DNA of 64,000 bases, taken from NCBI GenBank assembly GCA_026003755.1, contig BPHV01000005.1, positions 248,001 to 312,000 on the forward strand, given 5' to 3'. The DNA is from Candidatus Roseilinea sp. Lineage in GTDB: Bacteria; Chloroflexota; Anaerolineae; J036; Brachytrichaceae. A program made the position numbers and the translations under genes. The stretch's first letter is position 1. Each line of letters opens with the position of its first letter. The notes beneath the pieces were generated by a model. It made no database searches. It worked only from the letters and a program-made list of their open reading frames with translations, and was not told the origin of the DNA. Positions 39,322 through 41,103 of this stretch are shown piece by piece.

Positions 39322-39353
39322 AGAAATACAAAAGCCACCGCGGTTGCGATGGC
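39322..39353 (-). terminator. Rho-independent terminator after greA
   Basis: On the minus strand GCCATCGC-AACC-GCGGTGGC (39353-39334; one G-U pair) is followed by TTTTGTATTT. It ends the greA transcript before the helicase pair. Confidence 0.8.
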
Positions 39354-39401
39354 TCCTCTCCCGTCCGATCCGCACAGCCGGAATGCCATTTCAGATTCGG
39401 A

Positions 39402-39875
39402 TCATTTGTTCGCGATGTGAGTGACTTTGAACTTGATCTCGCCCTCGGGCGCTTGCACGGAGACGATGTCGTTCACCTTGTGGCCTAGCAAGGCGCGGCC
39501 CAACGGCGATTCGTTGCTGATTCGCCCGCGGGCCGGATCGGCCTCGGCTGAACCAACGATGATGTAGTGCTCTTTGTGGCCGGAGCCGACTTCGGTGATG
39601 GTGACCTTGCTCCCCAGGCGCACCTCATTCGCTGGACCCTTGTTCTCAATCAGCACGGCATTGGCAAGGATGGTCTCGATCTCCAGAATGCGCCCCTCAA
39701 CAAAGGCCTGCTCATTCTTGGCATCCTCATACTCGGGATTCTCCTCGACCTCACCCTCGGCCATCGCGTCATGCAATCGCTGAGCGACCTCGGCCCGGCG
39801 AACGGTCTTCAGGTACTCCAGCTCTTCTTCGAGCCGCTTCAAACCCTCTGGAGTGAGATATTCCTGTTCGATCAT
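39402..39875 (-). CDS. greA: Transcription elongation factor GreA
   Basis: 157 residues, standard length. N-terminal antiparallel coiled coil (LTPEGLKRLEEELEYLKTVR) with tip AEGEVEENPEYEDAKNEQ, and C-terminal FKBP-like domain (LGSKVTITEVGSGHKEHYII; ISNESPLGRALLGHKVND). It binds the RNA polymerase secondary channel and stimulates cleavage of backtracked RNA. The tip usually reads GDLxEN; here GEVEEN keeps an acidic pair with Glu in place of Asp. GreA is expressed from a promoter at 40047-40075 with a 165-nt leader that contains an early terminator. Confidence 0.96.
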   Translation of the reverse strand: MIEQEYLTPEGLKRLEEELEYLKTVRRAEVAQRLHDAMAEGEVEENPEYEDAKNEQAFVEGRILEIETILANAVLIENKGPANEVRLGSKVTITEVGSGHKEHYIIVGSAEADPARGRISNESPLGRALLGHKVNDIVSVQAPEGEIKFKVTHIANK

Positions 39876-39984
39876 CGTATATCCCTACCTTATGGACGAT
39901 CTGCGTCAGCGCGGTTGATACCAGCTACGACTCACAAGCATCGAGTCGCATCTTGGGACGTTCAGTGTCACGCAGCAACGTCAG

Positions 39985-40017
39985 AATTAAAATAGAGGCG
40001 CCGAATGAACGCCTCTA
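39985..40017 (-). terminator. Early terminator (attenuator) in the greA leader
   Basis: Minus strand: TAGAGGCG (40017-40010), 9-nt loop, CGCCTCTA (40000-39993), then TTTTAATTC. It begins about 23 nt after the predicted start site, so a transcript of roughly 55 nt would be released unless read-through occurs. There is no other minus-strand gene between it and the promoter. Confidence 0.75.
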
Positions 40018-40046
40018 CCTTCGTAGTGCAAACGTAGTGCGGCCGG

Positions 40047-40075
40047 AGTATACCCGATCCACTTGGAGTTGACAA
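40047..40075 (-). promoter_or_regulatory. Consensus-like sigma-70 promoter of greA
   Basis: On the minus strand TTGTCA (40075-40070), 17-bp spacer, TATACT (40052-40047). Predicted start near 40040, giving a 165-nt greA leader. It is the best promoter match seen in the window. Confidence 0.75.
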
Positions 40076-40137
40076 GAAGGGGATTCACATAAATAATAGA
40101 GGTTCGGATTCAACTGGCTTCATAAACGATTTATATT

Positions 40138-41103
40138 ATGTATAGAGTGATTGTCACTGACCACGCATTTCCCTCACTCGATCCAGAACGCGGTGTGCTG
40201 GCCGGCCTGGCAGAAGTGATAGACTGCAGCCCACTGCGCACCGAGGACGATGTGATCTGCGCCGCGCGCGACGCCGATGCGCTGATCATCGGCTTCGCGC
40301 CTATCACGGCGCGCGTGATGGATGCCTTGCCCCGGCTGCGTTGCGTCGTGCGCTACGGCGTCGGCTACGAGACGATTGACGTGCCGGCCGCCGCCGCGCG
40401 CGGCATCCAGGTCGCCAACGTGCCGGATTATTGCATTCCCGAAGTGGCCGATCACACCATGGCTCTGCTGCTGGCGCTGGCGCGCAGGGTGATCCCGCTC
40501 GATGCAAGCGTGCGGCGCGGCGAATGGGCGACGCTAAAAATAGCTCAGCCGGCGCATCGCATCGAGGGCCAGACGCTCGGTTTGATCGGCATAGGGCGCA
40601 TCGGCAGCGCAGTCGCCCAGCGTGCACTCGGCTTTGGGATGCGCGTGATCGCGTATGACAAGTATCTGCCGCCGGAGCGCGCGCAGGCGGCTGGCGCGAC
40701 ACGGGTGGACCTCGACACGCTGCTCCGCGAGGCGGACTTTATCTCCATCCATGCGCCGCTCACGCCGGAGACGCGCCACCTCATCAACGCCGAAGCGATC
40801 GGCAAGCTGAAGCCCAGCGCCTATCTCATCAACGTAGCGCGCGGGGCGATCGTAGACACGCTGGCGCTGGCGGACGCATTGCAAATGGGCAAACTTGCCG
40901 GCGCAGCGCTCGACGTGTTCGAGCAGGAGCCGCTGCCCGCCGACCACCCCATCCGCAACGCGCCGAACGTCATCCTTCATCCGCACGCTGCCTGGTATTC
41001 CGAAGAGGCGCTAACCCAACTGCAGGTCAACGCTGCCGAGGAGGTGGCCCGCGCCCTGCGCGGCGAGCCGCTGAAGAACCTGCTCACGCCGGCGAAGCTA
41101 TGA
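40138..41103 (+). CDS. CtBP-type D-2-hydroxyacid dehydrogenase
   Basis: 321 residues from ATG 40138; no Shine-Dalgarno is visible, so a near-leaderless start or the GTG at 40147 is possible. NAD-dependent 2-hydroxyacid dehydrogenase fold: VVRYGVGYETIDVPAAAARG, PDYCIPEVADHTMALLLALA (the DYCxxEVADH signature of the C-terminal-binding-protein subgroup), Rossmann LGLIGIGRIGSAVAQRA, INVARGAIVDTLALADAL, DVFEQEPLP and HPHAAWYSEEA with the catalytic His. Substrate unknown; probably a sugar-acid or hydroxy-acid. Followed 67 bp later by the MenC/NSAR enolase on the same strand, so a small acid-catabolism operon is plausible. Confidence 0.88.
   Translation: MYRVIVTDHAFPSLDPERGVLAGLAEVIDCSPLRTEDDVICAARDADALIIGFAPITARVMDALPRLRCVVRYGVGYETIDVPAAAARGIQVANVPDYCIPEVADHTMALLLALARRVIPLDASVRRGEWATLKIAQPAHRIEGQTLGLIGIGRIGSAVAQRALGFGMRVIAYDKYLPPERAQAAGATRVDLDTLLREADFISIHAPLTPETRHLINAEAIGKLKPSAYLINVARGAIVDTLALADALQMGKLAGAALDVFEQEPLPADHPIRNAPNVILHPHAAWYSEEALTQLQVNAAEEVARALRGEPLKNLLTPAKL

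Follow-up and report, generated by a model that had tools for sequence, protein, structure and literature searches.

A promoter-proximal, terminator-like hairpin in greA leaders of Thermoflexales and other Chloroflexota

GreA controls backtracked RNA polymerase. Escherichia coli seems to set its GreA level through a terminator in the leader of greA itself; the greA locus described here is from the phylum Chloroflexota. In E. coli, the GraL RNAs extend 49–59 nt from the P1 promoter, and about one third of transcripts pass the leader terminator (PMC6829880). Catalytically active GreA raises termination in cis, with an effect that lies in the leader and not at the promoter; this effect, seen in vivo but not in vitro, depends on a further factor, and GraL also acts in trans (PMC6829880).

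The window (the whole stretch of DNA that was analyzed, 64,000 nt) belongs to a genome placed by its nearest named relatives in the order Thermoflexales (class Anaerolineae, Chloroflexota), and its GreA shares 40% identity with E. coli GreA (features in Table 1). A sequence-only reading had reported a near-consensus promoter followed about 23 nt later by an 8-bp hairpin and a T-run, and had likened the arrangement to GraL; each of these features was recovered. The promoter TTGTCA-17-TATACT (40075..40047, minus strand) matches the consensus at 10 of 12 positions, and the presumed start, a consensus prediction, was set 7 nt past the −10 element. The hairpin TAGAGGCGTTCATTCGGCGCCTCTA, followed by TTTTAATTCT, begins 29 nt past the −10 element; its stem has eight Watson-Crick pairs plus two G-U pairs, and its loop is 9 nt. 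The stem lies 23 nt and the T-run about 55 nt from the presumed start, and 117 nt separate the end of the hairpin from the ATG, giving the GraL-like order of promoter, leader of roughly 50 nt ending in a predicted intrinsic terminator, and greA. The minimum-energy fold (z = −2.9 for a 71-nt segment) is built around this hairpin, which is still dominant in the full leader. The T-run of the window is interrupted and is moderate, not strong; a TTTTAATTCTGA T-run is common to most members of the genus, and TTGTCA, TTGCCA or TTGTCG stands at the matching −35 position in six other members.

Table 1. Features of the greA locus in the window
Feature	Position	Strand	Basis or remark
greA copy 1	39402..39875	(-)	157 aa; GreA_GreB_N and GreA_GreB Pfam domains
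−35 element TTGTCA, greA promoter	40070..40075	(-)	consensus-based prediction
−10 element TATACT, greA promoter, 17-nt spacer	40047..40052	(-)	consensus-based prediction
Presumed short leader RNA, ~55 nt	39984..40040	(-)	inferred from promoter and T-run positions
Terminator hairpin TAGAGGCG-TTCATTCGG-CGCCTCTA	39993..40017	(-)	fold, score, order-wide conservation
T-run TTTTAATTCT, presumed release site	39983..39992	(-)	adjoins hairpin
Read-through portion of greA 5′ leader	39876..39982	(-)	likely ribosome-binding site AAGGTAGGG near 39890
Terminator-like hairpin 3′ of greA, 12 pairs, then GTATTTCTGT	39330..39357	(-)	scan
2-hydroxyacid dehydrogenase gene, divergent from greA	40138-41103	(+)	upstream neighbor

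Because the upstream neighbor runs divergently, a terminator facing greA cannot belong to it, and this origin was ruled out; the terminator-like hairpin 3′ of greA suggests a single-gene transcription unit. The −35 boxes of two divergent promoter-like sites, at 40069-40097 (+; TTGACA) and 40047-40075 (−; TTGTCA), overlap almost fully, and competition for RNA polymerase between greA and the 2-hydroxyacid dehydrogenase gene may result.

Hairpins were scored with the d value of d'Aubenton-Carafa, and σ70 promoters were sought with a purpose-written scan. The window hairpin scored d = +2.5 and the experimentally known GraL hairpin of E. coli +8.5 with the same script; a simple hairpin scanner missed the former because its 9-nt loop exceeds the scanner limit of 8. 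When the 262-nt intergenic region was shuffled 2000 times with its dinucleotide content kept, a hairpin with d ≥ 2.4 arose in 3 shuffles, a promoter matching at least 10 of 12 positions in 18, and promoter and hairpin jointly, at looser thresholds, in 1. Of 78 divergent leaders taken from 464 kb of the same genome with a crude ORF caller, none but that of greA reached d ≥ 0, and none but it held a promoter-hairpin pair. Terminators with d ≥ 0 occurred in 4 of 43 convergent intergenic regions of the same 464 kb (d from +0.5 to +31.9), which places the window's value in the genome's own range, at its lower end. The shuffles and the genome's other leaders reject a chance match, and a dispersed repeat was rejected since the element is present in a single copy.

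Conservation of the stem, on which the sequence-only reading had staked its comparison, holds across the order. From 28 Thermoflexales genomes, 26 leaders of greA copy 1 were obtained, and 24 of these carry a terminator-like hairpin with d ≥ −15, one further leader having a weak hairpin; the counts refer to sampled genomes, many of them incomplete, and related genomes are not independent observations. Different genera carry different stems: TAGAGGCG in g1, CAGAGGCG in g3, GTGACTGAG in g7 and g8, a CTGAG-type stem in g5, CGAGAGGC in g6 and CCCGCTTT in g2. When the eight basal positions were compared over 22 distinct hairpins, pairing was kept at 173 of 176 stem positions and each level showed three to six letter combinations, so that the stem sequence has evidently been replaced between genera with pairing retained. 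It is on this replacement between genera, not on covariation within g1 and g3, that the case for conservation rests: in those two genera taken by themselves 99% of cells pair, vs. 32–66% with slid partners, and formal covariation is weak because six of the nine pairs are invariant. One genus member has a second copy of this greA type (L153/L032, G008 contig 168, 252-722) that contains an in-frame TAG but retains an intact leader hairpin TAGAGGCG..CGCCTCTA.

For the promoter-hairpin spacing proposed as a check, it is the distance to the T-run that stays steady: of 21 Thermoflexales leaders measured, 19 would give an RNA of 43–58 nt between presumed start and T-run, with hairpins of 21–42 nt and a pre-stem part that varies from 3 to 26 nt in all measured relatives but genus g2; in several genera the stem begins only 3–6 nt from the presumed start. 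A strict distance ruler is not claimed, as the distance from start to T-run ranges more widely in other families than in Thermoflexales. A scored promoter lies at most 75 nt upstream in 19 copy-1 leaders, and others show TATACT or TATAAT but no good −35 element. In the full leaders of 21 relatives, the terminator stem has a probability of at least 0.92 in the predicted fold, and the predictions show no fold that competes with it. In g7 and g8, which have a weak T-run (TTCTGTT), d falls to about −13 and the hairpin may be poor at termination. A start of greA transcription downstream of the hairpin had been named as an outcome that would refute the comparison; a scan of the window leader turned up no promoter-like site from the hairpin to the ATG, and in some relatives only 22–34 nt (22–27 nt in g8) lie between the two.

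The element belongs to greA leaders and extends beyond the order. A genome-wide search of the 28 Thermoflexales genomes with the g1/g3-type stem plus T-run gave matches solely in greA leaders, and the reversed control pattern gave none in the same genomes. In 201 Chloroflexota genomes, CTGAGAG-loop-CTCTCAG-TTTT had four matches, all four at 26–44 nt before greA. A scan of 199 class members with a looser pattern gave eight matches with the full CTGAGAG/CTCTCAG stem, all preceding greA (five read directly; those in G032, G052 and G058 matched via known greA coordinates), and matches with other, looser stems in that scan lay before greA in none of seven cases; the looser CTGAG/CTCAG pattern was rejected as a marker, being noisy and not greA-specific. 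Altogether, the 12 sites found elsewhere in Chloroflexota with CTGAGAG/CTCTCAG and a T-run all precede greA. In a blind comparison of loci from Chloroflexota, Armatimonadota and Bacillota, with crude control gene calls, the promoter-hairpin pair occurred in 35 of 66 greA leaders vs. 8 of 308 other genes, and at least four of these eight (L056, L084, L088, L100) are apparently greA genes missed by the filter. In a phylum-wide set it was found in 28 of 64 greA leaders vs. 0 of 640 shuffles. The element is not indispensable, since it is missing from one relative (L026) and from most sampled greA leaders of family f27 of the same class. The element is old within Chloroflexota but shares no detectable sequence with the E. 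coli leader (no RF01769 match); either of the two origins that the sequence-only reading had offered, independent or ancient, may apply. Six greA leaders (L039, L053, L056, L063, L140, L223), from some Anaerolineae, Armatimonadota and other Chloroflexota, carry a pair of terminator-like hairpins in tandem behind a single promoter.

Where Thermoflexales have two greA copies, the early terminator is confined to the first. The genome of the window encodes two GreA proteins; the window copy has the tip GEVEENPEYE and the other (L112, G000:C1:49852-50304) the canonical GDLSENADY; aligned to E. coli GDLKENAEY, copy-1 GEVEENPEY has E in place of the catalytic D41 and keeps E44. Copy 2, with the canonical tip, lacks the early terminator in all of 20 Thermoflexales genomes. 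A leader from another family (L146 in G036, upstream of greA at 583) has a very strong hairpin (d = 45) before a greA encoding the tip GDLSENADYH; the element hence occurs with more than one tip type.

The leader's anatomy, its conservation and its restriction to greA are observed; the reading that we prefer, with a probability of roughly 0.6, is that the hairpin is a partial, promoter-proximal intrinsic terminator and that greA mRNA arises only by read-through of it, GreA being the most likely factor to set the read-through fraction. From the sequences, we infer that termination occurs in vivo and is only partial. RNA polymerase would start near 40040 and synthesize about 55 nt; at the hairpin and T-run some complexes would release a short, GraL-like RNA and the remainder would read on into greA mRNA, in a proportion governed by factors that act on the polymerase there. 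By analogy with E. coli, the factor would most likely be GreA, enough active GreA giving more termination and less GreA synthesis. That greA is transcribed through the hairpin follows from the empty promoter scan 3′ of it and from its closeness to the ATG in g8. The short pre-stem RNA suggests that read-through is probably set on RNA polymerase and not by a leader peptide, an aptamer or an upstream antiterminator; a leader peptide, T-box or aptamer was rejected because there is little room 5′ of the stem. Against this preferred reading stand the moderate T-run of the window and the weak ones of g7 and g8, a GreA dependence borrowed from E. coli and there seen in vivo only, the E at the position of catalytic D41 in copy-1 GreA, and the leaders without the element in L026 and most of f27.

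The main rival is a fixed terminator that cuts greA output by a constant factor, perhaps setting noise, with no feedback or signal. We consider it possible if on balance unlikely: the same anatomy would be enough, no sensor element is visible, and a strong promoter with an early terminator would yield a steady low level, but the link to greA over other genes across phyla and the presence at copy 1 with absence at copy 2 fit a factor acting on RNA polymerase better than generic damping, and GreA dependence has been shown in E. coli (PMC6829880).

A 5′ stem-loop that shields the mRNA end or affects translation would agree with stems lying 3–6 nt from the presumed start in several genera, and with g7 and g8, where the T-run is weak and, in g8, the hairpin approaches the ATG; it is nevertheless improbable, given a T-rich stretch 3′ of the stem in nearly all relatives, 117 nt between hairpin and ATG in the window, and an RNA length to the T-run that stays steady in most of the order. 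We give very little credence to an independent small-RNA gene upstream of a greA with its own downstream promoter. It would yield the RNA of about 55 nt, and E. coli GraL is also trans-acting (PMC6829880), but no promoter-like site lies between hairpin and ATG, the gap in g8 is only 22–27 nt, and the stem sequence is unconserved between genera, unlike that of a base-pairing RNA. Least credible of all is a DNA palindrome serving as operator for a greA repressor, for which a perfect 8-bp dyad directly 3′ of the promoter would be apt: arm spacing is highly variable with the arms intact, stem sequence is replaced with pairing kept, and the T-run is on the greA strand only.

Beyond the window, a wider proposal is put forward tentatively and at less than even odds: Chloroflexota and some Armatimonadota would share an old, greA-specific leader element through which GreA senses its own activity via termination in the first ~50 nt, whose stem is CTGAGAG/CTCTCAG over much of the phylum and has been replaced in Thermoflexales. 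If GreA does sense itself through its leader, early-terminator feedback would be general to greA among bacteria, having been rebuilt repeatedly. The present work extends the known cases to Chloroflexota and a few Armatimonadota; it also describes a stem common to the phylum, stem replacement within one order, and an element confined to one of the two greA copies there. A similar promoter distance kept in another phylum, with the sequence replaced, suggests that placement and terminator matter and not a particular RNA sequence; this bears on a question from the E. coli work, whether the terminator has to lie close to the promoter, for which Chloroflexota leaders offer natural variants.

Among known greA leaders, E. 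coli GraL is matched in layout: its hairpin begins ~24 nt after the −10 element (29 nt in the window), its T-run lies ~50 nt from the start (~55 nt predicted), its hairpin lies ~103 nt from the ATG (117 nt), and both hairpins score as terminators with the same script. In the window, too, a predicted intrinsic terminator stands in the greA 5′ UTR within ~60 nt of the predicted start. The window stem is unrelated in sequence to GraL and its T-run is weaker; the short RNA, GreA dependence and trans action are features of GraL. At E ≤ 10, window positions 39800-40200 match nothing in Rfam, RF01769 (the enterobacterial greA leader) included, whereas the E. coli leader, as positive control, scores 127.5 bits. 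Ten related loci likewise gave no match to any Rfam leader family, and a place in a known Rfam family was therefore rejected. No published work on greA leaders of Chloroflexota was found in the literature searched, and the main text of Naville and Gautheret (2010; PMC2965389), searched for "Chloroflex", does not mention the phylum. For Proteobacteria, bacilli and Clostridia, these authors predicted attenuators in greA and rnk leaders (PMC2965389). Early termination before greA is therefore already a known kind, and the parallel in a distant phylum drawn by the sequence-only reading holds as one phylum more and not as a lone case. Their leader groups share no common features, and each attenuator has a clear antiterminator, whereas the window leader and those of its relatives have little room 5′ of the stem and no predicted competing structure, a mutually exclusive antiterminator being absent from their predicted folds. 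Common to those attenuators and to the window is an early intrinsic terminator upstream of greA, predicted from sequence here and conserved within lineages.
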